Shown piece after piece: positions 4,911 to 34,515 of a DNA stretch of 64,000 nt (positions are counted from its first letter, which is position 1; every line of letters starts with the position of its first letter). A model generated the notes under the pieces. It did no database searches. It was not told where the DNA came from and saw only the letters and a list, made by a program, of their open reading frames with translations. Where the stretch lies: positions 2,578,338 to 2,642,337 of the forward strand of contig NZ_CP042913.1 of NCBI RefSeq assembly GCF_008065115.1. The letters run 5' to 3'. Origin of the DNA: Bythopirellula goksoeyrii. GTDB taxonomy: Bacteria > Planctomycetota > Planctomycetia > Pirellulales > Lacipirellulaceae. A program made the translations under genes and the position numbers.

Positions 4911-5508
4911 CTACTCCTCTCCCCCCTCCAGTTTCTCCACCACTGCCATCACTTCTTCGCTATCCGCTGTTGGATTGACCGAAGTGTTCTTGTAGACGAT
5001 CTTTCCATCTCTATCGATCACAAAGGTCCAACGGTTTGCTGTCACACCACGATCGAGCGTGATTTCCTTGCCGCCAATATTGGTGGTGAACGAACCCCCA
5101 TCGCCCGTTTTCACGCCAAACGACTTAGCGATACTGCCATCGGGGTCGGCAAGCAGTGTGAAGTTAAGATTGTGTGCTTCTTTGAAATGCCGATGGTTTT
5201 CGGCCGAGTCGCCGCTAACGCCGAGCACCCCGCACATCGTGGTCTCGAAAACTCTGCATTGAGTCGCGGTAGCTGCACGCCTGCTTCGTACAACCACTAG
5301 TCATGTCGGCAGGGTAGAAATAGACTACCAGTATTTTCTGGCCCACAACATCGGTCGACTTAAACTCAGAATCGTCATCCGCGGCGCCGGAGAAATCGGG
5401 TGCTGAATCACCGACATTCAAATCCACGGGTTGGTCAGCAGCCCAGGTAGTTCCCAAACCGCAAACCAATGTGAAATAAGCAAATAGGACGAATACGTAG
5501 CATTTCAT
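4911..5508 (-). pseudogene. Exported BCP/PrxQ-like peroxiredoxin with a +1 frameshift
   Basis: Two overlapping minus-strand frames together make one thioredoxin-fold peroxiredoxin that reduces peroxides. The first frame gives a signal peptide (MKCYVFVLFAYFTLVCGLG) and the peroxidatic/resolving Cys pair in SGCTKQAC; the second gives LGVSGDSAENH and the C-terminal half. The frames meet at a CCCC run (5228-5231, GGGG on the coding strand). Removing one base there joins them as HDVRVLGVSGDS, and the span of 598 bp is exactly one base more than 199 codons. The start at 5508 follows a GGAGAGAG ribosome site. The frameshift is either a real inactivation, phase variation at a homopolymer, or a sequencing error. 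The envelope location is unusual for PrxQ, which is normally cytoplasmic. Confidence 0.8.
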
Positions 5509-8800: not shown

Positions 8801-9835
8801 AACAATCTTACTCATGGTGATGGGGGCGGCATATCAGGAATAAATGTCTCTGTAGCCAATTCAACGATAAGTGGAAATAAGGCCTTCGGCTCAGGAGGGG
8901 GATTATTCATACACTTTGGATACCATCAAGAGCTAGCACACAGCACCGTCACGAACAACATCTCCGATGCCGATGGCGATGAAATTGGAAGTGGCGGTGG
9001 ATTATTTAGCAAGAATCTCTATGAACTTAATCATTCGATTATTGCCGGAAATTTCGACAAGAGTAACACGGCAAGAGATGTGTATGGGATCGTCTCAGCG
9101 CAGTTCAGTATCATCGGCTTAGGCGCAGAATTCCTAGGCCCTCTTGCATACAATGGTGGGCCAACTTTGCCCGACGGAAGAATGATATTGACCCACGAGC
9201 TCCTGCCGGACAGTCCTGCGATTAATGCAGGGCTGTATATTTTGGTTCCCGGCCAGAATGGTCTCCCCGAGTTCGATCAACGCGGAGCCCCCTTCGCCCG
9301 GGTTGTCGGGAGCCGCATCGACATCGGTGCCTACGAATCACAACCCGCCGCAGGATCCCTCAACGGTGATTTCGATGCCGATGGCGACGTCGATGGTCGT
9401 GATTTTCTCAGTTGGCTGCGTGGCTACGGCAAGACGGGGGATGTACAGCAAAGTGACGGCGATGCCACGAGTAATCATGCTGTCGACGGCAATGATCTCG
9501 CAGTCTGGCAGGCAACGTACGGAGAGAATCAATTGGCTGTTAGCTCTCAGCAGTTAGCCAACGACGCGGCGATCGAATCCATTGCCAATCTCTCCGCTGG
9601 CCTGCCTGCATTGTTTGCTGATCGCCCAATTTCCGGGCCTGATGTGGTTCTCAAAGATGAATTTACAGTAGCTCCTATCCCAAGCTCACTGAAGAGCGAA
9701 TCGAATCTGCAACGGTTGGTTCGAAATACTCAGCCTAGATATTCCTCGTGGAACTGTTCCCCCAGCGACGAAACTCAGACAACGGAATCAGTCGATCTAG
9801 CAGCGTTCGACGAAGTCTATGCAGCCTTGGTATGA
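5840..9835 (+). CDS. Giant exported beta-helix protein with dockerin-like C-terminus
   Basis: A surface or secreted protein of about 1331 residues. The start at ATG 5840 is set by GGAGG at 5827-5831, although the frame is open upstream. The N-terminus has the planctomycete motif CEQLEDRRLLA (about 31-41), usual for exported giant proteins. Two homologous modules follow. Each opens with an SLREAI block, runs through dozens of short parallel beta-helix turns (patterns like GGGI, ISGN, STISGNS), and closes with LADNGGPTLTHALLPGSPAINAG and DQRG-PF-R-RIDIGAFE, which is the choice-of-anchor Q pattern. Calcium-binding dockerin-like repeats (DFDADGDVDGRDF and SNHAVDGNDLAVW) occupy about 1172-1230. 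No enzymatic site is visible; adhesion or polysaccharide binding is inferred. Confidence 0.88.
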   Translation: MALFQKTCRARQTSSFIRSPYARSLHCEQLEDRRLLALLTVTTDQDVVDFNDGVTSLREAIFAVNTVPGADEIQFDFGHDGPATILLTQGELEITDSLTITGSGAELLTIDAQQQSRIFSVNGLAGDVAFVGMTMTNGKTTLAQEGGGAISALRGMRVFIDNSILQDNSTSGFRSRGGAIISNNELQIRESIISGNFTTGLNASGGGIYATSITLVDSLVEGNRTHGNDARGGGIASLSSSQKETFFERSHIINNETVGNFSLGGGIAHWIGNLTIHDSLISGNKTSGDRASGGGVYFDHGSLSISSSSIIDNSTTGTHSRGGGLFSHGSLNTIESSTISGNSTIASGGGIYSLGNLDLFYSAVSNNSVYGMFVYGGGLALHSFSTIVNSTISGNKATGQSAAGGGIDARGSLQISNTTISENKAQGYSSRGGGVFASSLTLSHSTITGNRVVGDDSRGGGVVGIHTSIQHSIIANNEATYADSDLHWPTQSRNISFSLIGTNAGNNLTETPIGSPDANGNLIGGPIHGVIDPLLGPLADNGGPTLTHALLPGSPAINAGEPALVGWDVPAFDQRGEPFTRVFGGRIDIGAFEAQSFVVDTLVDESDGDYSPGDFSLREAIELANQIAGANTIEFDPLLTATAGPLPATILLTMGQLEITDSLTINGPGAELLTIDTSGLPGSIFEINDTISANLIDTKIAGVTLTGATDSAIHLSENLTVSETVFHNNRATQGGAIRVDNSSRRIPGINLTVHDSLFVDNHADVNSKSQGGAIYFVPWDGELSINTSSFHENSAVLHGGAIYSGTFTSVSIEQSSFENNQADYGGGISLGGNSLHSATIKNSSFLGNIATLSGGGIYSGKDLTIGDSKITGNRTLKENILSFDKHGGGGLLQLYGRLTVDNSTISGNSSKGDGGGIGAGGHSFLTNTSIFNNAAIGKGGGINIRNGLLELQTTVIVENTSGLLGGGGIYAETSLQGTSSIRNSTISNNLTHGDGGGISGINVSVANSTISGNKAFGSGGGLFIHFGYHQELAHSTVTNNISDADGDEIGSGGGLFSKNLYELNHSIIAGNFDKSNTARDVYGIVSAQFSIIGLGAEFLGPLAYNGGPTLPDGRMILTHELLPDSPAINAGLYILVPGQNGLPEFDQRGAPFARVVGSRIDIGAYESQPAAGSLNGDFDADGDVDGRDFLSWLRGYGKTGDVQQSDGDATSNHAVDGNDLAVWQATYGENQLAVSSQQLANDAAIESIANLSAGLPALFADRPISGPDVVLKDEFTVAPIPSSLKSESNLQRLVRNTQPRYSSWNCSPSDETQTTESVDLAAFDEVYAALV

Positions 9836-10040
9836 CACAGTGCTACCAATTGCATAGCAGATTCACAGTTCCTTTGGACACGACTTGAAGGCCAGCATTC
9901 CGACCTATTCCATGTTTTACCTTGGTTATCCGTGGCTCGATTTAGTCGCATCCTGACGCTACTTGTGATGGGCCATAGACAAATCTCCCCTCGTTGGGCA
10001 AATTAGAAGGACTAACTTCTTCCCAACAGCTCATTGGCCT

Positions 10041-10466
10041 ATGTCCCACTTCGCTGCACTAATGCTGTCTGCCACGAGCACCACGCGGTGGCCTGACAGC
10101 ATTGATGCCACGATCACGGCCAGTTATCTGGCAGTGATTCTGGGAATACCGATCTTGGGTTATGTGGTGATGGTTCTAGATTTCCGCCGCTGGCTCCGCT
10201 CACTGCGGCGTTCTCTGGTCATTGTCTCGAGAGCTGTGACAACAGTCCCCTACTGGGCTCTGCTTGAGAGACCTGCCTGTTTGCGAGCCTTCGATCTGAA
10301 AATGCCGTGCACTGAGGCGGAGGTGCTGGCCGCCTATCGCGAGAAAGCGAAAACGATGCATCCCGACCGTGGAGGGGATCTGAAGTCGTTCTTGCGACTG
10401 CAAAAAAACGTCGATAAGGCGCTCAAACTAGTGCGAGGCAATGAAGGTGATTCGAGCGGAAGCTAG
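10041..10466 (+). CDS. Membrane-anchored J-domain protein
   Basis: A 141-residue protein with one predicted membrane segment (about 28-50) and a C-terminal J-like domain. AAYREKAKTMHPDRGGD contains the HPD tripeptide (107-109) that J proteins use to stimulate the ATPase of Hsp70/DnaK. The J domain is short and lacks DnaJ's Gly/Phe and zinc regions. This is the layout of class III J proteins that recruit DnaK to the membrane. No client can be deduced. It lies alone, 146 bp before lpxD. The ATG at 10041 is the first Met; no strong ribosome site is visible. Confidence 0.78.
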   Translation: MSHFAALMLSATSTTRWPDSIDATITASYLAVILGIPILGYVVMVLDFRRWLRSLRRSLVIVSRAVTTVPYWALLERPACLRAFDLKMPCTEAEVLAAYREKAKTMHPDRGGDLKSFLRLQKNVDKALKLVRGNEGDSSGS

Positions 10467-10612
10467 TGAGCGAAAGTTCAAAGCCGGCTTGTCGTGCTAG
10501 CGTACGATCTGCTCTTGCTAGTAACGGCGAAAACTGACTACTATTCCAGCCCCTTGTTGTTGATTTGCCGACAGAGTAGCACGCGAGATAAACTCCAGGA
10601 AAGGATTCCAAT

Positions 10613-11680
10613 ATGCCGACCCCCTTGGCCGAATTGGCGCAGCTGGTGTCCGGTCAGCTCCGTGGCGTTGGCACCACGCCGATACACGGCTTTGCAACGC
10701 TCGACGTTGCCCAAGCTGGCGAGATCACTTTGGTCGACAATTCAGATCGGGCTGCAGCACTTGAGGATTCACCTGCTGTTGCAGCTATCGTCCCCGCCGT
10801 TTTCCCGGAGAGTACCAAACCAACGATCGTCGTCTCCGACGTCCATGCGGCTTTTGCCCAGATTGTTACTTACTTTCGGCCTCTGCGTAAGCGTAGCAAT
10901 TGTGGGATGAGCCCCTCAGCCTGGATCAGTCCCACCGCACGTTTGGCAGGCGATGTGCAAATCCATCCGGGAGCTACCATTGGCGACGAGGTGATAATCG
11001 GTAGCGGATCGATAGTTCACTCGGGCGCACGGATCATGGCCGGTTGCGTCATCGGCAAAGGCACCACCCTATTTCCCAATGTCGTCCTCTACGAAGACAC
11101 TCACGTGGGAGATCGAGTCATCCTTCACGCGGGTGCGGTTCTTGGTGCCTACGGGTTCGGCTATCGCGAAATTGATGGCCAGCACACCCTCGCCTCGCAA
11201 CTCGGCAATGTGGTAATCGAAGATGACGTCGAAATCGGCGCCTGTGCCACCATCGACCGCGGGACCTACGGAGCCACCACCATTGGCGCGGGCACAAAAA
11301 TTGACAATCTTGTCCAGATTGCCCATAACTGTCGCCTTGGCCAGCACAATCTTATTTGCAGTCAGGTAGGCATCGCAGGCAGCACCACCACGGGAGATCG
11401 TGTGGTGATGGCGGGCCAAGTCGGGGTGCGCGATCATGTCCACATTGGCGATGGGGCAGTACTCTGCTCCAAAGCTGGCGTTCCCAATAGCGTCTCCGCC
11501 GGCGAAGTGATGCTTGGTCAACCCGCAACTCCGTTGCGTCGACAGAAACTCCAAATGGCTGCCATCGCTAAGCTACCCGAAATGCGACGCGATTTCCGCC
11601 AACTGCAACACCAACTGGCCAAGCTACAAGAGCAACTCGTAGCGGACAACGAGGAGCAACTAGGCGAACAAGCCGCATAG
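10613..11680 (+). CDS. lpxD: UDP-3-O-acylglucosamine N-acyltransferase LpxD
   Basis: LpxD transfers a hydroxyacyl chain from acyl-ACP to the 2-amino group of UDP-3-O-acylglucosamine, the third step of lipid A synthesis. The 355-residue protein has the N-terminal uridine-binding domain (1-100) and then a left-handed beta-helix of hexapeptide repeats (about 105-310). The catalytic His is His238 in QIAHNCRLG, and the neighbouring ATIDRG and KIDNLVQ stretches are typical. A charged coiled-coil-like tail (about 320-350) ends the protein. An AGGAAAG ribosome site precedes the ATG. It is followed by lpxI, so two nonconsecutive lipid A enzymes are encoded together. Confidence 0.95.
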   Translation: MPTPLAELAQLVSGQLRGVGTTPIHGFATLDVAQAGEITLVDNSDRAAALEDSPAVAAIVPAVFPESTKPTIVVSDVHAAFAQIVTYFRPLRKRSNCGMSPSAWISPTARLAGDVQIHPGATIGDEVIIGSGSIVHSGARIMAGCVIGKGTTLFPNVVLYEDTHVGDRVILHAGAVLGAYGFGYREIDGQHTLASQLGNVVIEDDVEIGACATIDRGTYGATTIGAGTKIDNLVQIAHNCRLGQHNLICSQVGIAGSTTTGDRVVMAGQVGVRDHVHIGDGAVLCSKAGVPNSVSAGEVMLGQPATPLRRQKLQMAAIAKLPEMRRDFRQLQHQLAKLQEQLVADNEEQLGEQAA

Positions 11681-11684
11681 AGTA

Positions 11685-11705
11685 GCACGACTCGGCGAGT
11701 CGTGC
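11685..11705. repeat. Short palindrome GCACGACTC/GAGTCGTGC
   Basis: A perfect 9-bp stem with a 3-base GGC loop, right after the lpxD stop. A close relative with a GGA loop occurs at 47381-47397. Both copies lie in noncoding DNA, which suggests a small dispersed palindrome. Its position argues for the later lpxI start. Confidence 0.75.
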
Positions 11706-11734
11706 GACAATGGCCAGATTGCTTATCACTCAAC

Positions 11735-12643
11735 ATGCGATTATCCCTCAACAAGAAAGCCGACTCACTGAACGATTCGGATCGACCCATCGGCCTGCTG
11801 GCTGGTTGGGGTAGTTATCCGCGTGCCGTTGCTGAGGCATTGCAATCCCAAGGTCACCACGTTGCTGGCGTTGGAATTCACGATCACGCCGATCCTCGCC
11901 TGGCCGACCTTTGTCAACACTTCGACTGGATCGGATTGGGTGGCATTGGCCGCGCGATCCGCCTCTTCAAACGTTGGGGAGTCCGCGAGGCGATCATGGC
12001 CGGCAAGGTACATAAGGTACTTCTCTACCAACCAGGTTGGTGGCTCAAGCATCGTCCCGACTGGACATGCATCAAGGCATTTTCTCCGCAACTGATTTGG
12101 GGCAAGTCGGATCGCAAAGATGACACGCTACTTTCTACAATCGTCGAAGCCTTTGCCAGATACGGAATCGACTTCCAACCCACCACGAAATTTGCACCGG
12201 AGCTACTTGTGAAGTCCGGACATGTCGCAGGAAAACCGCTTACGAGCAAACAACTCAAAGATGTCTCATTCGGTTGGCAAATCGCCAAGACGATGGGAGG
12301 TCTCGACGTTGGTCAGACCATTTGCATCAAGAACCAAACCGTCATTGCCGTGGAGGCGATCGAAGGAACCGATCTTTGTATTCGCCGCGCCGGTGAATTG
12401 TGCGGTGGGGGTGGGATTACGGTCGTGAAAGTCGCTAAGCCCCACCAAGATATGCGATTTGACGTTCCCACCGTGGGAATCAAGACACTCGAGTCGATCG
12501 CTGCGGCGGGGGGAGGTGTCTTGGCCATCGAGTCCGAGAAAACAATCTTGCTCGAACGCCCCGAATTCTTACGATCAGCCCGCCGCATGGGCATCTCCGT
12601 AATCGCTCAGGCGGACGCAACTTTGGCCAGCGCGGCAGCTTGA
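11735..12643 (+). CDS. lpxI: UDP-2,3-diacylglucosamine pyrophosphatase LpxI (DUF1009)
   Basis: LpxI hydrolyses UDP-2,3-diacylglucosamine to lipid X and UMP and replaces LpxH in many Gram-negatives. The 302-residue protein carries the N-terminal IGLLAGWGSYPRAVAEALQ dinucleotide-like region, the AGKVHK segment, then the C-terminal domain with GLDVGQTICIKN, AVEAIEGTD, GGITVVKVAKPHQDMRFDVPTVG and a LAIESEKTILL end, all typical of the DUF1009/LpxI family. The Met at 11735 is preferred because the longer start at 11702 would begin inside or at the edge of the palindrome. It is co-oriented with lpxD and probably co-transcribed. Confidence 0.92.
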   Translation: MRLSLNKKADSLNDSDRPIGLLAGWGSYPRAVAEALQSQGHHVAGVGIHDHADPRLADLCQHFDWIGLGGIGRAIRLFKRWGVREAIMAGKVHKVLLYQPGWWLKHRPDWTCIKAFSPQLIWGKSDRKDDTLLSTIVEAFARYGIDFQPTTKFAPELLVKSGHVAGKPLTSKQLKDVSFGWQIAKTMGGLDVGQTICIKNQTVIAVEAIEGTDLCIRRAGELCGGGGITVVKVAKPHQDMRFDVPTVGIKTLESIAAAGGGVLAIESEKTILLERPEFLRSARRMGISVIAQADATLASAAA

Positions 12644-26746: not shown

Positions 26747-26859
26747 GCGTTGTGTTTGGGATCTGCCGGCAAAAGCGTCTGCCGGACAAGCGCGCGGTTG
26801 CGAGCAAGCCAGCCATCGAAGCTCGATCTTGCGCACCGTGGCGTGAGTTTTGTCATGGC

Positions 26860-26867
26860 CACTTTTA
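26860..26867. repeat. Target-site duplication, left copy
   Basis: CACTTTTA lies immediately outside the left terminal inverted repeat and is repeated exactly at 30284-30291 outside the right one. Confidence 0.85.
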
Positions 26868-26892
26868 GGTACTGATCCCCTAAAACCACACA
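26868..26892 (+). repeat. Left terminal inverted repeat
   Basis: 25 bp starting GGTACTGATCCCCTA and ending CCACACA. It matches the reverse complement of 30259-30283 at 23 of 25 positions. IS1-family ends characteristically begin GGT. Confidence 0.88.
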
Positions 26893-26939
26893 GCAATCGA
26901 ACCCGTTGACCACCCATTCCATCCATTTATTATCGTGGC

Positions 26940-27326
26940 ATGGGAGACCTCAAGCAACTCATCAAAGCGGCTAGATCACGCCGCAACGCCACCATTCAGC
27001 AAGCCCGCGAACACTACGCCCAAACGGTTCGCGCTCTCCAGAAAGCAGCTCGCAAGACTTCAACACGACGCAAGCGACACTATCGGCCAAACCCAGACCA
27101 GGGCGGCGACTTCTCAAAGCTGAATACCCGCGAAGCTGCTGAGTCGGTGCTGCGGGAACTAGGGCCGCTAACTCTGGTGGAGATTACCGTCGAAGTGATG
27201 CGACGGGGGTGCCGGTCTGGCGAGAATCCACGGGTCGTAGCAAATGCTATATTCTGCGCTCTTCGGTATCACGAGGAGCGGGGGCGGTTTTCTAGGGATG
27301 GGGAGGGGCGGTGGTCGATCCAATAG
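26940..27326 (+). CDS. Small basic protein with winged-helix-like C-terminus
   Basis: A 128-residue protein, not firmly recognised. The N-terminal half is very basic and helical (AARSRRNATIQQAREHY, STRRKRHY). The C-terminal half (about 62-126) reads AAESVLRELGPLTLVEITVEVMRRG...NPRVVANAIFCALRYHEERGRFSRDGEGRWSI, a pattern resembling HARE-HTH/winged-helix domains of chromatin and restriction-associated proteins. DNA binding is therefore likely but inferred. It starts 47 bp inside the left end of the transposon and is the only cargo gene on the transposase strand. It may regulate or assist transposition, or be passenger DNA. Confidence 0.65.
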   Translation: MGDLKQLIKAARSRRNATIQQAREHYAQTVRALQKAARKTSTRRKRHYRPNPDQGGDFSKLNTREAAESVLRELGPLTLVEITVEVMRRGCRSGENPRVVANAIFCALRYHEERGRFSRDGEGRWSIQ

Positions 27327-27459
27327 ACCGCTGGCGGTTCGCGGGGAGAAGGGCGATAGGGGGAGGATAGCCAGTTAGGCCGCAATAGTGTAGCGATTAC
27401 GACACACCACTTGCGATTTCCCCTGTATTTACGGAATTATCACTATTGACGGGTTTGGC

Positions 27460-27502
27460 ACTTTTTTAGTATTCTCTACTCCGTAGAGAATACTAAAAAA
27501 GT
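27460..27502. repeat. Perfect 20-bp inverted repeat with 3-nt loop
   Basis: ACTTTTTTAGTATTCTCTAC at 27460-27479 is perfectly inverted at 27483-27502 around TCC. The A/T-rich outer parts give U-tracts on both strands, so it could be a bidirectional terminator. A TTGACG (27447-27452) lies 18 bp before a TATTCT in the left arm, so it could also overlap a promoter as an operator. Confidence 0.85.
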
Positions 27503-27555
27503 ATTTTTCGACTTTTCTGGTTGTCATGATGACTACAAATCTTGTCAGAATTCCC

Positions 27556-27584
27556 TTGACTTTGGCTCCGGCCTAACCGATACT
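27556..27584 (+). promoter_or_regulatory. Promoter-like pair before a short terminated unit
   Basis: TTGACT (27556-27561), a 17-bp spacer and GATACT (27579-27584). Transcription would start near 27591 and meet the terminator at 27630-27665, giving an RNA of about 75 nt with no open frame of note. Confidence 0.35.
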
Positions 27585-27629
27585 TAATTGCGTTCTCTGC
27601 CTAGTGCAGTAGAATCTACAAAGGCTTTT

Positions 27630-27665
27630 ACCGCTGAGCCAGCCTGGCAAATCAGCGGTTTTTTT
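27630..27665 (+). terminator. Intrinsic terminator
   Basis: An 8-bp stem ACCGCTGA/TCAGCGGT with a 14-nt loop, followed by seven T on the plus strand. It overlaps the stop codon of the convergent minus-strand gene. Confidence 0.75.
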
Positions 27666-28086
27666 ATGCCCATTTCGGGCCTTTTTTGACAAGATTTATG
27701 GCATATTGCTCTGCTGGATATGCCGTGATGAAATTGGCTTTGGTGTCAGAAATCATTGCAATTACGACTATGTAGTTTCCCTCTAAGGCCACTCTCCGAT
27801 CTGGGTCGTGGCACCTTTTCTTCTTGTTCCATCCCTGGTACTTGGGGGCATCTCGATTTTGAAGTACAAAACGTATCCAGTCCAAGCGAATTGCTCGGGG
27901 GATGGAAAATGTGTCTTTATCCGAATTTCTAAGGGAGCTTTGAAAACAGCAGTGGTCAAAATCCTTTTTCCTGAACCGGACTGCAATTCCGTCATAGGTC
28001 ATGATCGGAGCCTTGCAATAGTTATTTTCAAAGTGAGTGCGATAACAAGTTTCATCAGTCAGATTCAAGAAGCATGGCACTGCCAT
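27664..28086 (-). CDS. Small cargo protein resembling BECR-fold (PBECR-like) ribonuclease
   Basis: A 140-residue protein, second in a tight pair with the DUF3800 gene. Readable features are FDHCCFQSSLRNSDKDTFSI, DWIRFVLQNRDAPKYQGWNKKKR and a C-terminal RRVALEGNYIVVIAMISDT then ANFITAYPAE. A beta-strand ending in TAYP after a basic RR segment is a pattern I associate with the barnase/EndoU/colicin-D/RelE (BECR) nucleases found in phages and toxins. That assignment is inference from pattern only. The ATG at 28086 comes one base after the DUF3800 stop with a G-rich ribosome site inside the upstream gene, so translation is coupled. Five Cys residues occur in the first half. It could instead be an antitoxin-like partner. 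Confidence 0.5.
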   Translation of the reverse strand: MAVPCFLNLTDETCYRTHFENNYCKAPIMTYDGIAVRFRKKDFDHCCFQSSLRNSDKDTFSIPRAIRLDWIRFVLQNRDAPKYQGWNKKKRCHDPDRRVALEGNYIVVIAMISDTKANFITAYPAEQYAINLVKKGPKWA

Positions 28087-28087
28087 A

Positions 28088-28789
28088 TCACCATCCCCCC
28101 TGAAGGTTTATTACAAAGACATTGAACTTTTCCTCACTGGCTGGCGTGTGGGATATTTGGTTGCCGAGACGTGATTCAAAGTAGTCAATTAGTTCCGATT
28201 TTGCACCTGCCTGCTTTGCAGAGCGGTTCACTTTCGATGAGACAAGACCGGTTAAAATATCTGATAGCTGTATAAGCACAGATTCGATAGACCTTACCGG
28301 CTGAACGCGAGCAATGTCAGAAAACAAGTTGGAGTGATCTAAACATTTTTGTAGATCCGATAGCCTAGTTCTCGATCTATTGCTCTTGAAATCACAAAAC
28401 ACAGAGTAAGTATTAAAATCATATATCCAGTGATGAAGGAGCTGGTAGTAGAACTTATAGAAGGCCAGCTCGCAGTCGCTGTCGTGGAACTTCACGCGAT
28501 CTACTTTTTCTCGATCTATTACAATAGACCTGAAACGAACAGCGGTGTCTTTTGAAAAAAACCAATCGATAATGTCCCGGTAAAATGCCATCTTTGGGTG
28601 AGAAACTTTCTGCCACTTTGCTTCACCACCAATATCGTGTGTTTGCTTTATTTCTTTCAATTCTTGCTTGAACGCCTCTCGTGCAGCACTAGGAATCCAT
28701 AGGCTACCCAGCACCATATATTGATATTTCGTACTCTGGGATGCGAACAGATCTGGCCTGCTCTCATCACAATACACTTCGATTTTCAT
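28088..28789 (-). CDS. DUF3800 domain protein
   Basis: A 233-residue protein with the features of DUF3800: N-terminal acidic strand IEVYCDESRPDLF, then YMVLGSLWIP, a central YYQLLHHWI helix, the second acidic strand VFCDFKSNRSRTRL, and the C-terminal ESVLIQLSDILTGLV segment with a further Asp. The family is thought to adopt an RNase H-like fold with metal-binding acidic residues and is common in phages, mobile elements and defence-rich loci; the reaction is unknown. It is the first gene of a two-gene unit with the BECR-like gene, downstream of the small RHH-like gene on the same strand (156-bp gap). Confidence 0.85.
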   Translation of the reverse strand: MKIEVYCDESRPDLFASQSTKYQYMVLGSLWIPSAAREAFKQELKEIKQTHDIGGEAKWQKVSHPKMAFYRDIIDWFFSKDTAVRFRSIVIDREKVDRVKFHDSDCELAFYKFYYQLLHHWIYDFNTYSVFCDFKSNRSRTRLSDLQKCLDHSNLFSDIARVQPVRSIESVLIQLSDILTGLVSSKVNRSAKQAGAKSELIDYFESRLGNQISHTPASEEKFNVFVINLQGGW

Positions 28790-28945
28790 GAGGTGAACCT
28801 ATTACCCTTAGTTGAGTCTGCATTGTGCCGCTATTTCCATCTTGCGATAACTGGAGAGCGGCCCGCGCCTTGGTGGCGCAGCAGACTTATATCCTGCCGG
28901 AGGGGTCCGTAAATCACGGATGGGATCGTAACCCCCTTTCTCCGC

Positions 28946-29122
28946 TTACTTGCGGCTGCGCCGCTTGGCAGCCCTCAGAAGCACATCCCTGGCCCACGTA
29001 GAAGCCTTTCCGTCAGCAGCAGCCTCAATCTCGGCTCTTTCTGCTTCGGTTAGCCTGATGGGCAACAGGACCGTTCTGCGCTCTTCTGGGGGTTTCTGTG
29101 GCGCTCCACGTTTTGCTTTCAT
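28946..29122 (-). CDS. Ribbon-helix-helix-like regulator, 58 residues
   Basis: A short gene read directly from the sequence. The N-terminus is basic (MKAKRGAPQKPPEERR), followed by a strand-helix-helix pattern: RTVLLPIRLTEAERAEIEAA, then ASTWARDVLLRAAKRR. This is typical of CopG/Arc-type or mobilisation-accessory RHH proteins, which bind DNA as dimers. A strong promoter ends only 6 bp upstream of the start codon, so the mRNA is leaderless or nearly so. Two GTATTACAA direct repeats flank that promoter and would suit autoregulation. It is upstream of, and may be co-transcribed with, the DUF3800 pair. Confidence 0.75.
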   Translation of the reverse strand: MKAKRGAPQKPPEERRTVLLPIRLTEAERAEIEAAADGKASTWARDVLLRAAKRRSRK

Positions 29123-29128
29123 TTCTGG

Positions 29129-29157
29129 ATTATCGTATTACAAAAAACTTTCGTCAA
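29129..29157 (-). promoter_or_regulatory. Strong sigma-70-type promoter for the RHH-like gene
   Basis: On the minus strand TTGACG (29157-29152), a 17-bp spacer and GATAAT (29134-29129) lie directly before the ATG at 29122. One operator-like repeat overlaps the spacer. Confidence 0.7.
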
Positions 29158-29189
29158 CCCTATTGCATGGTAGATTAATTGTATTACAA
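29135..29189. promoter_or_regulatory. Pair of GTATTACAA direct repeats (operator candidate)
   Basis: Identical 9-bp repeats at 29135-29143 and 29181-29189, 46 bp apart centre to centre. One lies inside the promoter spacer and one upstream of the -35 box. The AT-rich spacing of about four and a half helical turns suits cooperative binding by a small dimeric repressor. Confidence 0.5.
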
Positions 29190-29200
29190 TAAATACAGGC

Positions 29201-29240
29201 AAAGAAAAACCCGGTAAAGCCTTGCAGGGCCTCACCGGGC
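29201..29240 (-). terminator. Intrinsic terminator facing the RHH-like gene
   Basis: On the minus strand, CCCGGTGAGGCC pairs with GGCTTTACCGGG, followed by TTTTTCTTT. It would stop transcription antisense to the transposase gene before it reaches the cargo promoter, insulating the cassette. Confidence 0.7.
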
Positions 29241-29313
29241 AACTAAACCAGCTTTCGCTAGAGTAGCCTGAACACCTTCATTCTAGCAGGAAGCCCAACC
29301 GGGAGCTACTAGA

Positions 29314-30258
29314 ATGATCGCAGCCTGCAATCACAGCGAACGAACCAAACACGGAAAAGACCGCCTTGGAAATCAGCGTTACAAGTGCAAGAGCTGCCGA
29401 ACCACGTTCGTCAGCGACGAAACCCGCCCTTTGGGAGATATGCGAATCGACCTGGACAAGGCGGTAGTTGCCCTGAACCTGTTGCTAGAGGGAATGTCAG
29501 TTCGGGCCACTTCCCGCATGACCGGCATGAAGATCGGCACAATCTGCGACTTGATTCTCCACGTTGGCGAGAACTGCCAGCGTTACCTGGACACTAAGAT
29601 TCAGGGCGTCAAAGTCGAAGATGTCGAAGTCGATGAAATCTGGTCGTTTGTCGGTTGCAAGAATCGCACCGCAGCCGACAAGGGCTACAACGAGGACAGC
29701 GGCGACTCTTGGACCGCAGTTGCTATCGAGAGAAACACTAAGCTGGTCATCGCTCACCAAGTCGGCGAACGTGACAATACGACAATCTGCATCCTATTGC
29801 AAAAGTTGGCCGACAACACGGTAGGCCGGTTTCAGTTGTCGAGCGACGGTCTGGCAAGCTACAAGTTGAATGTTCCTTACATGCTCCGGGACCGCGTTGA
29901 TTTTGGTATCATCATCAAGCAGTACCAATCGACTCAGAAGTCAGGGCGATACTCTCCAGCGGCTATAATAGGCATCAAGAAACGATCTGAATTTGGAAGA
30001 CCTGACCGTGACCGAATCGGTACTTCAATCGTAGAGCGATTCAACCTCACCATGCGTATGCAGAACCGCCGATTCACTCGCCTAACCAACGCCCATAGCA
30101 AGAGTCGTAAACACCACGCTGCCATGCAAGCCATCTTCGTTATGTGGTATAACTACGCTAGAAAGCACGAAACCATCAAGCAGACCCCTGCTATGGCCAG
30201 CGGATTGGCAGAAAAAAAGTGGAGCGTCAAAGACCTTGTTTTACAGGTTGCGAATTAG
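29314..30258 (+). CDS. IS1-family transposase
   Basis: A 314-residue DDE transposase. The N-terminus has a partial zinc finger and helix region (RTKHGKDRLGNQRYKCKSCRTTF), followed by an HTH (LLEGMSVRATSRMTGMKIGTICDLI). The catalytic core shows VDEIWSF (first Asp), LSSDGLASY (second Asp) and SIVERFNLTMRMQNRRFTRLTNAHSK (Glu). MASGLAEKKWSVKDLV near the end is typical of IS1-like enzymes. A GGGAG ribosome site lies at 29301-29305. The stop is directly followed by the right terminal repeat. It is a single continuous frame with no programmed frameshift, unlike classical IS1 InsA/InsB. Confidence 0.92.
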   Translation: MIAACNHSERTKHGKDRLGNQRYKCKSCRTTFVSDETRPLGDMRIDLDKAVVALNLLLEGMSVRATSRMTGMKIGTICDLILHVGENCQRYLDTKIQGVKVEDVEVDEIWSFVGCKNRTAADKGYNEDSGDSWTAVAIERNTKLVIAHQVGERDNTTICILLQKLADNTVGRFQLSSDGLASYKLNVPYMLRDRVDFGIIIKQYQSTQKSGRYSPAAIIGIKKRSEFGRPDRDRIGTSIVERFNLTMRMQNRRFTRLTNAHSKSRKHHAAMQAIFVMWYNYARKHETIKQTPAMASGLAEKKWSVKDLVLQVAN

Positions 30259-30283
30259 TGTGTGGGTCTAGGGGATCAGTACC
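30259..30283 (-). repeat. Right terminal inverted repeat
   Basis: Inverse of the left end with mismatches at two positions. It begins at the base after the transposase stop. Confidence 0.88.
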
Positions 30284-30291
30284 CACTTTTA
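30284..30291. repeat. Target-site duplication, right copy
   Basis: CACTTTTA, identical to 26860-26867. Confidence 0.85.
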
Positions 30292-30661
30292 TGAGAGCTG
30301 AAAAACAAAATACAAAACTCGGTGGCGAAATGAAGTTTTCTAGGGGTTTCAGAAAGATTTCCAAATAGTTTTTAAAACAAAACCTCGACTCCCCGTGACA
30401 AAACTCCAACCGCTTCGAGCCCCTCGCCGCCTCCGGCCAACCACCCTCCCGCTTGCGGGAGGGTCGCGAGCTATCGAGCGCGCGAGGGCCTGTGCTGTCT
30501 CGCGCCAGGAAGCTGCTGATGCCAGTTAGAAAATAAATCAATTGCCAAGGAACGTCTGCTCTGGTGAGCAACGACCATTCTCCCTACTAGAGTGGCCAAT
30601 TTCTACAAGAAATTTTGTGCCACTTTGGAAAAGTCGAGGGCTGAGAGTCAAGAGACGAGAG
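30292..30661. other. Noncoding spacer between transposon and integron remnant
   Basis: 370 bp with no supported gene. It contains a small hairpin CCCTCCCGC TT GCGGGAGGG at about 30447-30466. It may include decayed 3' integrase sequence, but none is recognisable. Confidence 0.5.
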
Positions 30662-30865
30662 CCGGAATTGTAGAAGCGCCGGACGAAGCTTCTCTGGGAG
30701 TGGAACCGCACGATCTTTGTCGCCCTTCGCTTCGCGTAGGAGGAACTGACCTCGGTCAATGTCGATGTCTTTCGCTCGTAGTCGACAACACTCCATCAAT
30801 CGCATTCCGAACCCGTACATAATTCCTGCCATCACGCGATGTACGCCATGCCCACGTAGGCTTGT
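30662..30865 (-). pseudogene. Tyrosine recombinase (integron-integrase-like) fragment
   Basis: About 68 residues match the central catalytic region of IntI-type recombinases: VHRVMAGIMYGFGMRLMECC, RLRAKDIDIDRGQFLLREAKGDKDR and VPLPEKLRPALL. The first catalytic Arg is in GMRLMEC and the conserved Lys in GKGDKDR-like AKGDKDR. The HxxR and Tyr motifs are absent downstream and no N-terminal core-binding domain is readable, so the gene is broken. It points away from the attI-like site and cassettes on the plus strand, the standard integron arrangement. Confidence 0.75.
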
Positions 30866-31069
30866 TCGGTCCGTTACGAGTAGTGTTTGGCGCGCAGAAC
30901 CTCGCGGACTTGATCCAAGAGTTTGCGTGGTGGGCACGATCCGTTTGTTGCACCGTGCTGTACGGGCGGGTAAACTTGGGGCATCGCAGAAGTCTCCTTG
31001 GTTTCCGCCTGGGAAAGTGAACATATGCATACACTCTACGATCAGGCTATTAAGGGACTTTTTTACACT

Positions 31070-31136
31070 TTGTGTGGATAAGCAGTCCCTGCAGCGTCTT
31101 ATCCCACATTTTTTGTGTCGAATAACAAGTTATGCA
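31070..31136 (+). other. attI-like recombination site
   Basis: ACAAGTTATGCAG contains a GTTATGC core at 31129-31135, 8 bp before the first cassette start codon and about 260 bp from the integrase fragment. This is the position expected for attI. Exact outer boundaries are not determinable. Confidence 0.5.
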
Positions 31137-31142
31137 GTAAAG

Positions 31143-31883
31143 ATGCCGCTTCCATGTCCATCATGTGGATTCCTCACCGTCGATGAGGACTGCTACGGCA
31201 CTTACAACATCTGCCCAATCTGCGGTTGGGAAGACGACGCCGTTCAACTTGCCAACCCAGCCTGTGGTGGTGGCGCCAACGGGGACTCGTTAATCGACGC
31301 TCAACTCGCAGCATTGGCCGAACACCCGCTCAACATCACCGTCGCAGACGAAATTGTACGCGACAAGCAATGGCGTCCTCTCAACGCCAGCGAACTCGAA
31401 AAGGCAAACACAGAAAAGCAAACCAAATACTGGATGAACAAGGCAATCTACGATCCGGCAACCGCCTACTGGAATAACTCCAAACCGATTTACTTGGTCG
31501 ATGGCGACGATTTTACGACGCTCGAAGGGTTCTACGATGTCGTCAGCCGCGTCCTGATCCCGAATGTTGAATGGGGCAAGAACCTCGACGCCTTCAATGA
31601 CATTCTCCGTGGCGGGTTCGGCACACCTGATGGCGGGTTCGTCATTCGCTGGCTGAACTCCCGCAAATCACAAGAATGCCTTGGCTATCCGGAAACGGTA
31701 CGGCAACTCAACTTTCGTTTGAATCGCTGCCATCCTTCCAATGTCCCGCATGTCCACGAGCAGCTTGTTGCCGCAGAATCTGGCAATGGCCCAACCGTGT
31801 ATGATTGGTTGCTGGAAATCATCCGTGTACACTGTGCCGACGGCGAAGAATCCGAAGATGGCGTTGAACTGTTACTCGAATAA
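31143..31883 (+). CDS. CPCC zinc-ribbon fused to a barstar-like domain (cassette gene 1)
   Basis: A 246-residue protein. Residues 1-55 form a CPCC-type cysteine-rich domain (Cys5, 8, 24, 27; LPCPSCGFLT, NICPICGWED). From about 118 the sequence reads IYLVDGDDFTTLEGFYDVVSRVL, EWGKNLDAFNDILRGGFGTP and HVHEQLVAAESGNGPTVYDWLLEII, characteristic of the barstar (barnase inhibitor) family. Barstar proteins bind and block RNases of the barnase type. No barnase is adjacent, so it may protect against incoming toxins or be an orphan immunity gene. The frame is open upstream; 31143 is chosen because it follows the attI-like core and starts the CPCC domain. Confidence 0.85.
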   Translation: MPLPCPSCGFLTVDEDCYGTYNICPICGWEDDAVQLANPACGGGANGDSLIDAQLAALAEHPLNITVADEIVRDKQWRPLNASELEKANTEKQTKYWMNKAIYDPATAYWNNSKPIYLVDGDDFTTLEGFYDVVSRVLIPNVEWGKNLDAFNDILRGGFGTPDGGFVIRWLNSRKSQECLGYPETVRQLNFRLNRCHPSNVPHVHEQLVAAESGNGPTVYDWLLEIIRVHCADGEESEDGVELLLE

Positions 31884-31896
31884 ACTGCATAGCAAT

Positions 31897-31965
31897 GGCA
31901 TGAACGCGGAGCCGCCGACATCGCGTTTTCAAGTGGAGCATGAACTGCGGCGGCCCGGTTATGCC
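31897..31965 (+). other. attC-like site 1
   Basis: An imperfect inverted repeat runs from GGCATGAAC (31897) to GGTTATGCC (ending 31965). Inner arms GAGCCGCCG and CGGCGGCCC pair with an extra unpaired A, the kind of bulge integrases use to choose the attC strand. It begins 13 bp after the stop of cassette gene 1. GTTATGC at 31958-31964 is the core. Confidence 0.7.
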
Positions 31966-31988
31966 TGACGTTTTGCCTGAGGACAAGT

Positions 31989-32588
31989 GTGGACCAAATC
32001 AATTGGGACGATCGTTATTCTGACGACGACTTCATCTACGGTACGGAGCCAAACACGTTTCTCGTCGAGAATTCGTCAATACTTTTGGGGCCGGTACTGT
32101 CACTAGCCGAAGGCGAAGGAAGGAATGCGGTATATTTGGCCACGCGCGGCATACAAGTTATTGGCGTAGACGCATCTTCGGTGGGGCTCGCAAAAGCACG
32201 TAGATTTGCACTCACCAAGGGGGTTGAAATCCAAACTCAAGTTGCGGACCTGGCGACATTTCAACCGGAACCAATCAGCTACATGTCTGTGATCTCCATC
32301 TCAGCACATCTTCCGAGTGCCGTACGGAATAGACTCTACCCATTAATCGAACGATGCCTTATGCCAAATGGGATTTTCCTGCTCGAAGCGTACTCAGAAG
32401 CCCAACTCAATCGAAACACTGGTGGCCCCAAAGACCTCGACATGCTGATGACAGTGTCGAAGATTGAGCACGAGTTGCCGAATCTACAGCCCATCCTCTT
32501 GCATGAAATTGAACGTGAAGTCTACGAAGGAAAGCACCACACAGGCATAGCATCTGTCGTCCAGTTCATCGGCAGAAAGCAGGCATAA
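31989..32588 (+). CDS. Class I SAM-dependent methyltransferase (cassette gene 2)
   Basis: A 199-residue methyltransferase of the TehB/thiopurine-like group. It has the N-terminal [20 protein letters not shown] entry motif, motif I as [16 protein letters not shown] (Glu-Gly-Glu-Gly), motif II VIGVDAS and a QVADLATF acidic region. The methyl acceptor is unknown; relatives act on small molecules such as tellurite, thiols or halides. The start is GTG at 31989. The stop codon lies inside the first core of the next attC-like site, and the gene starts 24 bp after attC 1, the compact layout of a gene cassette. Confidence 0.85.
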
Positions 32589-32674
32589 CATTTCGTTGTA
32601 CCGGAGCCGCGGGACGCGCGGATCCTGAAATCGTGTCATTTGCCGCGGCCCGGTGAACGGGATCGTTAGCTGCC
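32582..32674 (+). other. attC-like site 2
   Basis: Starts GGCATAACATTTCGTTGTACC, overlapping the methyltransferase stop, and ends CGTTAGCTGCC with core GTTAGCT at 32665-32671. The arms ACCGGAGCCGCGG and CCGCGGCCCGGT pair except for one unpaired A. The TAAC...TTCGTT spacing resembles well-known integron attC sites such as that of aadA. Confidence 0.8.
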
Positions 32675-33226
32675 CGGAGCATGTCTCCTAATATCGCGCT
32701 CGACGCTGCTGATGCCCGCCCACACCGCTGCAAGTATGGGCGGTGTGAGAAGGAACCTGACCAAGTATTTTCGCCCTTTTCTGACGAAAGCAAACCCAGG
32801 GTGGCGGCCGAGTTCGTGGAACTCACTTGGACTGATCCTGGGCTGTGCAGTCCAACATCTTAGGCGTATAGAAAGATATTCGCGAAATAGTTGGGCTGGT
32901 TGGTGGTTCGCCACGGCGAATCCGCGATTGGTAGTATGAGAAGAAGACGCACATCGCTCCGCTGGCGCGGCTAAGAGTCCAGTAGTTGACACCACCGCTG
33001 AAATCACTTTACTCAAACTGAATAGGAGAACCACGGATTGCACGAATTTCACGGATAAGTTGAGACGAAACCGTACATTTATTCATCGGGTAGGTTTGAG
33101 CAGATGGTGGGTGTGATTTTGAACAATCGAATGAGTTTCGTCCCGTTTTCGTGGGACTTGCTCTATCCGAGAAATCCGTGCTACTAACAATTAAAGTTTT
33201 CGCAGCTTGCAAACAAATATTTTGAA

Positions 33227-33307
33227 AACGCAGAGTACGCGGAGGCGCAGAGGAAGAAAACAATGGGAATTCTCTGCGAATCTCTGCGTCTTGGCGTCCT
33301 CTGCGTT
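33227..33307. repeat. Imperfect inverted repeat of CGCAGAG type
   Basis: AACGCAGAGTACGCGGAGG at the left end is mirrored by CCTCTGCGTT at the right, with about 30-bp arms that match imperfectly around a central AATTC. Internal direct repeats of CGCAGAG/CTCTGCG occur at least five times. Possibly a miniature inverted-repeat element. Confidence 0.7.
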
Positions 33308-33580
33308 TCAACGGTTTGTTTTGAACAAAAGAACACAGCGGAAACGGAGGGCGAGAAAATCGCACTCCACTCAACAATGTCCCTTCTTCTCTGTTTTCTT
33401 GGTTTCCTCCTGTTCCAATTATTGGTTGTGGCTAGTGGCCGCGCTGGGCTATCCGTGGTTACTGTAGTCTTGCTTTTCAGTTTGAGCACTTTTTCATAGC
33501 GAGCGAGGTTTCGGTCTCGTCAGCGGTTCTCCGTTACACTTCGTTTTCTTGCTCGACCGAAGAATATTAACACTTTTACA

Positions 33581-33629
33581 CCCTGGGCGACGGCCTTACT
33601 CGCTGAGGCTCGCAAGGCCTTGCCCAGGG
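33581..33629. repeat. Palindrome CCCTGGGC...GCCCAGGG
   Basis: Outer arms CCCTGGGC/GCCCAGGG and inner arms GGCCTT/AAGGCC around a 16-base loop. It is followed by GTCCCGGTGGGAC. The cluster resembles REP-type palindromes. Confidence 0.65.
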
Positions 33630-33707
33630 CTGTCATAGCGCCGTCCCGGTGGGACTTTCGGTCACCGGACGATAGCAGTTGCTTTGCACGATGCACACTT
33701 GCTGAAT

Positions 33708-33734
33708 GTCGCCTTTCGCGGAGCGAAAGACGAC
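33708..33734. terminator. Hairpin after purQ
   Basis: A 12-bp stem GTCGCCTTTCGC/GCGAAAGACGAC with one mismatch and a 3-base loop, 17 bp beyond the purQ stop. It probably marks the end of the minus-strand tyrA-purL-purQ transcript. It has no T-run. Confidence 0.5.
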
Positions 33735-33750
33735 ATAAAGTGATCGGCCC

Positions 33751-34515
33751 TCAGTTAAAATACCGCACCGCATTGCGGAAAAGCGCTAGCCCAGCCCCCT
33801 CGCCGCGAACTTCGCGACGGGTCCAGCTGGGGTGCTGCGTGAAGTCGACAAAGCGCTCCGGGTGGGGCATTAGGCCGAAGACGCGACCCGTTGTGTCACA
33901 CATGCCGGCGACGTCGTGCATGGCTCCGTTGGGATTGAACGGCGGGATCGATCCCTCCACGTCGGCATAGCGAAGTACTAGCTGACCAGCCTGGTCTAAT
34001 CGTTCAAGGGCTGCAGCATCGCGGGTGACGAATTTGCCTTCGGCGTGGGCGATGGGAAGGTACAACTCGTTCATGCCTGAGAGAAACACGCATTTGTCAC
34101 CTGCCGCTTTTAGACCCACCCAACGATCCATGAAGCAGCCAGAGTCGTTCCAGGTGAGCGATGCCGCCGGGCCGGTTTCGTCGTCGGTATCTAACAGGCC
34201 TGATTTGATGAGGACCTGAAATCCATTGCAAATACCTAGCAACAGCTTCCCCGCAGTGCGGAACTCTTGGAGAACCTCGCTTAGATGGTGGCGGATCTCG
34301 TTGGCAAAGATCCGGCCGGCGGCAATGTCGTCGCCGTAGCTAAACCCGCCAGGGATGCACAGCACTTGATACTCGGCGACCAATTGGGGTGCTTCGAGCA
34401 GCCGATTCAGGTGCAGTACGTCGGGCTGTCCCCCCGCCAGTTGGAAGGCATGCGCGGTCTCGACGTCGCAATTCGTGCCGGGCGCCCGCAGGATGAGAAT
34501 TCGAGGTTGAGCCAT
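33751..34515 (-). CDS. purQ: FGAM synthase glutaminase subunit PurQ
   Basis: PurQ supplies ammonia from glutamine to PurL for conversion of FGAR to FGAM in purine synthesis. The 254-residue class I glutamine amidotransferase has ILRAPGTNCDVETAHAF at its N-terminus, the nucleophile-elbow region LLLGICNGFQVL with the catalytic Cys, and GRVFGLMPHPERFVD with the catalytic His. An FSYGDDIAAGRIFA segment is typical of PurQ. It ends the minus-strand operon after purL, with a large palindrome in the 106-bp gap. Confidence 0.95.
   Translation of the reverse strand: MAQPRILILRAPGTNCDVETAHAFQLAGGQPDVLHLNRLLEAPQLVAEYQVLCIPGGFSYGDDIAAGRIFANEIRHHLSEVLQEFRTAGKLLLGICNGFQVLIKSGLLDTDDETGPAASLTWNDSGCFMDRWVGLKAAGDKCVFLSGMNELYLPIAHAEGKFVTRDAAALERLDQAGQLVLRYADVEGSIPPFNPNGAMHDVAGMCDTTGRVFGLMPHPERFVDFTQHPSWTRREVRGEGAGLALFRNAVRYFN

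Follow-up and report, generated by a model that had tools for sequence, protein, structure and literature searches.

The stretch of DNA considered here (the window) comprises 64,000 nucleotides of Bythopirellula goksoeyrii, of the phylum Planctomycetota (contig NZ_CP042913.1, positions 2,578,338 to 2,642,337 of the forward strand), and at 26868-30283 it holds an element of 3,416 bp, between whose ends lie one transposase of the IS1 type and four further genes. The left and right arms (26868-26897, + strand, and 30254-30283, - strand), each of 30 nt, are 87% complementary; the outer 25 bp of these inverted repeats carry 2 mismatches, and the outer 15 bp, the same at both ends, have 2 matches in the window at no more than 2 mismatches, namely the two ends themselves, where shuffled sequences gave a mean of 0.05. 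Immediately outside them lies a perfect 8-bp direct repeat, CACTTTTA, at 26860-26867 and at 30284-30291, which is the target-site duplication. From left to right, the genes are a HARE-HTH accessory gene of 128 amino acids (aa) (26940-27326, + strand; PF05066, 1.2e-06, above the cut-off), PDC-M04B (27664-28086, - strand, 140 aa), PDC-M04A, a DUF3800 protein (28088-28789, - strand, 233 aa), an open reading frame (ORF) of 58 aa that is weakly NikA-like or ribbon-helix-helix (RHH)-like (28946-29122, - strand; E 0.0046, below the Pfam cut-off), and the transposase, of 314 aa (29314-30258, + strand). A preliminary description had already claimed the 25-bp terminal inverted repeats with 2 mismatches, the perfect 8-bp repeats outside them, an intact IS1-type transposase reaching the right repeat and four extra genes inside, and all of this was confirmed on reading the ends, the two flanks, the genes and the transposase frame, which is open and has its stop codon within the right repeat.

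The assignment of the transposase to the IS1 family rests on sequence profiles: it matches DDE_Tnp_IS1 of Pfam (PF03400) with 37.8 bits (cut-off 24.1) and the N-terminal zinc ribbon of IS1 and IS1595 (NF050000) with 35.8 (cut-off 28). Against the IS1 equivalog of NCBIfam (NF033558) it scores 99.4 bits (E 2.5e-28), 0.6 bit short of the naming cut-off of 100. The zinc-ribbon part is absent from the shorter transposases of other sub-clades, and the best named matches belong to Planctomycetota. The residues D107, D178 and E241 are invariant in an alignment of 15 rows, and the protein would presumably be active.

The insA and insB genes of classical IS1 are joined by a frameshift, although some elements of the family lack this arrangement; here there is a single ORF of 314 aa and not the insA and insB pair by which the classical IS1 subgroup is defined. 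The ends are also IS1-like, since the consensus of 38 elements, GGTAGTGgCTCAgTTTGA, resembles the right end of IS1, GGTAATGACTCAAACTTATTGA, when both are compared by eye. The likeness to the IS1 of Escherichia coli, in its phage P1 copy, thus includes the DDE_Tnp_IS1 match, the zinc ribbon and the right end (GGTAATGACTCA, against GGTAGTGgCTCA in the family consensus), whereas that copy has 768 bp, no cargo, two ORFs (insA and insB) and a 9-bp duplication, and in the family of the window element the duplication has 8 bp and the unit, cargo included, 2-8.5 kb.

Target site and empty-site paralogues

The flanks of the element are parts of intergenic repeats that are found elsewhere in the same genome, the target being one such repeat, now interrupted, with its left part at 26821-26867 and its right part at 30292-30400. 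The sequence formed by joining the flanks with one copy of the 8 bp can be aligned, over the junction, with uninterrupted paralogues at C1:1757199 (71 bp, 80%, gap-free), C1:3340839 (158 columns, 71%, with gaps only away from the junction), C1:161807 (76 columns and 78%, its single gap also away from the junction) and C1:3056372 (70 columns, 77%, from the match table only). Since these paralogues are equivalent to empty sites, the last move would have taken the whole unit, and the insertion of the element as one unit is in this way supported by the sequence. The right part of the target has some 10 similar places in the genome, as a family of short intergenic repeats of which one copy is interrupted by the element.

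It could be supposed instead that the genes belong to a defence island beside a bare IS1-like insertion, the outer ends being coincidental. What speaks in favor of this is that another genome of the genus (G395) lacks the entire stretch 26749-33757, of about 7 kb, so the element lies within a variable region which is larger than itself and extends beyond its right end. However, the duplication encloses the whole unit, the empty-site paralogues are consistent with its insertion as such, none of 610 shuffles yields ends of this kind, and the same architecture recurs in the related elements described below, all of which makes the coincidence highly improbable. A clean orthologous empty site was also sought and had to be ruled out in G395, the best relative, where the whole 7-kb region is missing.

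Related elements and their differing cargo

Transposases related to that of the window element were searched for in its own genome, in 392 genomes of the phylum, 23 of which had matches at 1e-10, in 59 relatives, 20 of which had matches, in a collection of named genomes (16 loci) and in plasmids (291 records, 19 of them covering 80% of the query), as well as in phages, where 8 of the 9 records were carriers of the Escherichia IS1; IMG/VR contributed 1 transposase relative, in which paired ends were not found. The surroundings were read for most of the matches in the phylum and the relatives, and for the 5 best of the 291 plasmid records, the remainder of which are more distant and include ordinary IS1. 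The end search asked for paired ends and a target duplication around the transposase, and in its strict form it yielded 35 elements, spread over 33 of the 61 loci that have a related transposase, as against 0 of 610 dinucleotide shuffles of those loci, so that the paired ends are not due to chance. With another 5 found by looser rules the total reaches 40. The phylum of the window accounts for 36 of these, in 29 of the 42 genomes where a match was obtained, and plasmids of Alphaproteobacteria for the other 4 (Acidiphilium, Mesorhizobium, Hoeflea and Sphingomonas); in Sphingomonas the ends are weaker, 17/24.

These 40 elements measure from 2,037 to 8,524 bp, with a median of 3,376, and none of them is bare: even the smallest, in L087, has 1.1 kb of putative cargo beside the transposase. 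The first finder required an 8-bp duplication and for this reason missed IS1, with its 9 bp; once widened to 7-14 bp, it recovered the bare 768-bp IS1 of phage P1 and two more cargo-bearing elements, and within those lengths no bare relative of the window element. A perfect 8-bp duplication, in 37 different sequences, is present in 37 of 38 elements, a proportion that the finder favors, and a 9-bp repeat in none of the 38, the finder having asked for 8 bp; in L111 the duplication has 9 bp with at most 1 mismatch, and in L091 it has 7 bp. The transposase contains a stop codon in L089, L091, L096 and L114. Among the loci in which ends were not found there are fragments and contig ends, distant relatives (with 21-26% identity) and, in a few cases such as L110 and L173, full-length transposases; bare elements could be hidden among these loci. 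In L087, two related elements (6123-8159 and 8168-12442) follow directly on each other, and the same 8-bp repeat, TGTAATGG, stands at each of the three borders; it looks as though one of them had used the target of the other and inserted next to it.

Within this family, elements that are neighbours on the transposase tree (obtained by a quick method, with 11 of its 33 inner branches well supported) carry different cargo. Thus, the transposases of L070 and L071 are 87% identical, their terminal 25-27 bp are 96% identical and the genes of their left ends can be aligned, while the middle is dissimilar; those of L092 and L094 are 85% identical, and the cargo consists of a pair of XRE-M78 regulators in the former and of a PIN pair in the latter. 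The opposite situation also occurs, since L072 and L107, whose transposases are 36% identical, have in common four cargo genes in collinear order (34-47% identity), and L074 and L098, whose transposases are 29% identical, an SDH/ClpP-like protein (38%). Seven recurrent classes of cargo, labelled in 23 elements, require 14 changes on the tree against a minimum of 6, a count made with no shuffled control. As far as the sequences indicate, then, ends and transposase are retained among related elements, and it is the cargo that varies; and as close relatives are alike in the former and not in the middle, recombination or the capture of DNA would have to exchange the cargo often.

Other genes seem to remain with the ends. 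A HARE-HTH-like gene occupies the left end in all 7 elements of the nearest clade, that of the window included, although Pfam recognises 2 of the proteins, and in L073 (11052-15315) it is placed, relative to the transposase, at the other end from where it usually stands; in several elements, a small RHH-like gene is found near the transposase. Both could form part of a chassis that is common to these elements.

With regard to the cargo itself, recognisable toxin-antitoxin (TA), restriction or defence genes are found in 18 of the 40 elements. The most frequent are PD-Lambda-2_B-like XRE-M78 regulators, in 8 (L072, L087, L092, L104, L105, L107, L108 and L175), followed by PIN (L070 and L094) and PDC-M04A (the window element and L095, which contains a distant relative), and there are also RmrA (L176, 3.2e-191), PemK (L069), a HEC-04-like ATPase with a Clp protease (L096), Vsr with a C5 methylase and a GmrSD/NsnA protein (L113), an ABC-three-component annotation (L177), and a DNA methylase with a match to 'cll' (L111). 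The STAND-like ATPase of L112 may represent a nineteenth defence-type element. Most of the remaining cargo has no assigned role, and some of it recurs: P63C-type proteins in 3 elements, SDH-type proteases (4 proteins), and a family shared by L071, L078 and L090. Cargo and flanks were compared in a PADLOC scan of 139 cargo ORFs and 126 flanking ORFs of the same elements, in which 18 PADLOC families were matched by at least 2 proteins in the cargo and 1 in the flanks; these ORF sets are mechanical and include spurious ORFs, L091 and L111 were left out of them, the cargo of L091 lay outside the scans, and the cargo proteins were only partly scanned one by one.

Such a content could also correspond to selfish addiction modules, that is, TA genes which prevent the loss of the element and bring no benefit against phages, and this we take as a serious possibility, if somewhat short of an even one. 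Most of the recognised cargo is in fact TA-like (the XRE-M78 regulators in 8 elements, RmrA, PemK and PIN, together with the weak RelE/colicin-D-like fold of M04B), and transposons of the Tn3 family are known to carry TA pairs (PMC7157771). On the other hand, part of the cargo is of the restriction or ATPase type (L113 and L096), and PADLOC lists PD-Lambda-2 and PDC-M04 as defence or candidate defence models.

The PDC-M04 pair and a predicted small RNA

In the window element the PDC-M04A and PDC-M04B genes are adjacent and on the same strand, match the PADLOC models with 1.6e-74 and 1.3e-49, respectively, and so have the gene content by which PDC-M04, a PADLOC candidate, is defined; the difference is that here the pair is carried inside a transposon. 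Neither PMC7371123 nor PMC9252829 contributes anything further, and the name 'PDC' does not occur in the main text of the latter. The predicted structure of M04A (predicted local distance difference test score, pLDDT, 88) resembles RNase HII in Foldseek (1eke, 3.1e-06) and RNase H2 by VIA (3puf_D, Z 12.1, root-mean-square deviation (rmsd) 3.0 over 160 residues), and so M04A is predicted to be RNase H-like; the residues D8, E56, D133 and D177, invariant in 16 rows, would form its active site. That DUF3800 proteins have an RNase H fold and are linked to putative ncRNAs is already in print (PMC10910872). For M04B (pLDDT 88), the best structural match is the tRNase of colicin D (1tfo, rmsd 2.6 over 82), and nearly all of the 50 matches listed are toxins of the RelE, YafQ, YoeB, HigB, ParE or colicin type, with BrnT also among them, which suggests, weakly, a BECR-like (RelE/colicin-D-like) RNase fold. 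None of the four proteins of the element besides the transposase has a Pfam match to a recombinase.

Beyond the window, 15 loci with M04A were read, 12 of them with an adjacent M04B, which at 1e-3 is missing from L095, L170 and L171. Another PDC-M04A is present in the same genome (C1:2929326, in L086), 31% identical and accompanied by an M04B-like and an RHH-like gene, the latter with a product 49% identical to the 58-aa ORF of the window; neither a transposase match nor ends were found at that locus, and its pair is perhaps the relic of such an element. At the DNA level, the RHH-like gene of L086 (C1:2924000-2937000) is 74% identical over 241 bp to that of the window.

Next to M04B, and convergent with it, a small RNA with a 5′ hairpin and a terminator is predicted at 27590-27665 (+ strand), preceded by a predicted sigma-70-like promoter, TTGACT-17-GATACT, at 27556-27584 (+ strand); 7 promoter-type sites were found in the element where 3.7 were expected, and the folding of the RNA is moderately better than that of shuffles (z -2.54). 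A short unit of this kind, convergent to M04B and with a hairpin, was recognised by eye in 12 of the 13 two-gene loci, the window included, and in many cases promoter-like boxes and a terminator accompany it; L167 is only loosely alike, L161 has no clear promoter boxes, L166 is cut short, and in L169 the unit is missing. Its places are 27556-27665 of the window and the region downstream of M04B in L086 and L159-L168. Ten examples were aligned, without L166, L167 and L169, on pairs picked by eye and with a misalignment in the inner helix of L163, and the hairpin forms in 91% of the cells of this alignment. Two-sided changes occur at 4 of 7 pairs, a number reached by 9 of 500 shuffles, and the covariation score exceeds that of all 500 shuffles and of every slid version, while the count of pair types is unremarkable (85/500 shuffles). 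The RNA of the window matches no Rfam family; in one relative, L163, the Rfam family DUF3800-V appears at 5381-5476, just upstream of the short hairpin unit and in the same orientation, as if both were one transcript, and the unit is possibly a new DUF3800-associated RNA. Two matches to Rfam microRNAs on the window element, both below the threshold, were taken as chance. Farther to the left, at 27460-27502, there is a perfect 20-bp hairpin with a 3-nt loop, followed by a run of T and terminator-like (z -8.15).

Probable mechanism and standing among known elements

Taking all this together, the element of the window is very probably a cargo-bearing transporter insertion sequence (tIS) of the IS1 type, with conserved end modules and a varying middle in which the passengers often belong to TA, restriction or defence systems, and in this case to PDC-M04. 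The preliminary description had arrived at a compact IS1-type tIS, a view which the ends and the 8-bp duplication around four extra genes bear out. The transposase, of the DDE type and encoded by a single ORF, would bind ends of about 24 bp (consensus GGTAGTG...), move everything between them and leave the 8-bp duplication. The chassis would consist of the left end, with the HARE-HTH-like gene in the nearest clade, and of the transposase and the right end, in several cases with the small RHH-like gene, and the cargo would be replaced by recombination between related elements or by the capture of new DNA between the ends. We infer that the cargo defends the host; it would probably confer immunity or make the loss of the element costly, and either of these would favor small self-sufficient modules such as those observed. 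PDC-M04 would most likely be a nuclease-based system of the TA or abortive-infection kind, perhaps containing RNA, that could also aid the persistence of the element, its toxic part being a guess, and the parts played by the small RNA and by the HARE-HTH and RHH-like genes are likewise conjectural.

Several observations weigh against this reading. With regard to mobility, the transposition is deduced from the sequence, with no movement observed; the own genome, of 6.47 Mb in a single contig, holds only one full copy; and in that genome, the 392 genomes of the phylum and the 59 relatives there is no second copy with these ends and this cargo. The preliminary description had named precisely this lack as a finding that would count against it; of its claim that the cargo spreads as a unit, therefore, what stands is the insertion as one unit, from the empty-site paralogues, and the presence of relatives with the same architecture at many distinct sites, and what is not shown is the spread of this cargo with these ends. 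With regard to the family, the five elements of the looser rules (L099, L100, L114, L091 and L111) have no null of their own, and the search that yielded the first three also gave chance pairs, from which these were picked by eye and accepted because their ends resemble those of the family; the cargo of the same three looks unlike known defence, and in the count made, 22 of the 40 elements have no recognised defence-type cargo. The flanks also hit PADLOC families, 86 with 126 ORFs against 165 with the 139 cargo ORFs, so that an enrichment based on any hit was dropped as non-specific, and many of the 18 recurrent families are overlapping models of RmrA, LmuB or PDC-M04A matched by the same 2-3 proteins. 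Finally, M04B has a weak fold match, with 0.12 as its best Foldseek E and 6.0 as its best Z, and neither a related transposase nor paired ends turned up at any of 13 further PDC-M04 loci (L159-L171, several of them close to the end of a contig), which weakens the claim that PDC-M04 depends on the element.

The single full copy, the existence elsewhere in the genome of a transposase fragment (C1:1754717) and the lack of this cargo with such ends in relatives would also agree with an old insertion, which jumped once, became fixed and had its cargo domesticated. This we consider unlikely, since the transposase is open and has the three DDE residues, the 8-bp duplication is perfect and the outer 15 bp are the same at both ends. 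The fragment (C1:1754717-1755157, or 6721-7161 of L077) has 147 residues and is about 53% identical.

Transporters of the tIS kind are present in several insertion sequence families. Insertion sequence derivatives with passenger genes are described as tIS (PMC9330008), and the window element resembles them in carrying passengers between ends of the insertion sequence type; the difference is that here cargo is present in every delimited member of the clade, varies between close relatives and is often related to TA or defence. The machinery of Tn7-like transposons comprises several Tns genes. Transposons of this type are likewise cargo-bearing (96%), with ImmA, PIN and other TA and defence genes frequent among their passengers (PMC8649781), but their transposition machinery is another, as opposed to one small transposase gene in a unit of about 3 kb. 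The Tn3 family has acquired several kinds of TA passengers independently (PMC7157771), and it has a TnpA of about 1,000 aa, ends of 38-40 bp and a resolvase with a res site, while the window element has an IS1-type transposase of 314 aa and no recombinase match, and falls outside the definition of Tn3. Transporter insertion sequences are thus already known, as are TA pairs on Tn3 elements and defence cargo on Tn7-like ones; no description of a clade of the IS1 type that exchanges such cargo appears in the titles and the beginnings of abstracts listed, ISfinder and most subscription reviews being outside this comparison.

A broader proposal, which we advance tentatively and with rather more doubt than conviction, is that this IS1-type lineage is a dedicated shuttle for immunity and TA modules, in Planctomycetota and Alphaproteobacteria, with the fixed end modules as a chassis that exchanges whole systems; that the P63C proteins, the SDH/ClpP-like proteases and the family of L071, L078 and L090 are undescribed defence systems; and that PDC-M04 has three parts, an RNase H-like protein, a RelE/colicin-D-like RNase and a small RNA. 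Defence and TA genes are known passengers of large elements, and the way in which single modules pass from one genome to another is less clear; a unit of about 3 kb that has a single transposase gene and modules open to exchange would be a minimal vehicle for such genes. The cargo that is delimited by ends would offer a well-defined set of candidate systems in a phylum that has been little studied, and PDC-M04 with its small RNA a three-part system that can be tested. Outside the element, near 30442-30488, there is a short repeat different from that of the target, with about 6 further places in the genome.

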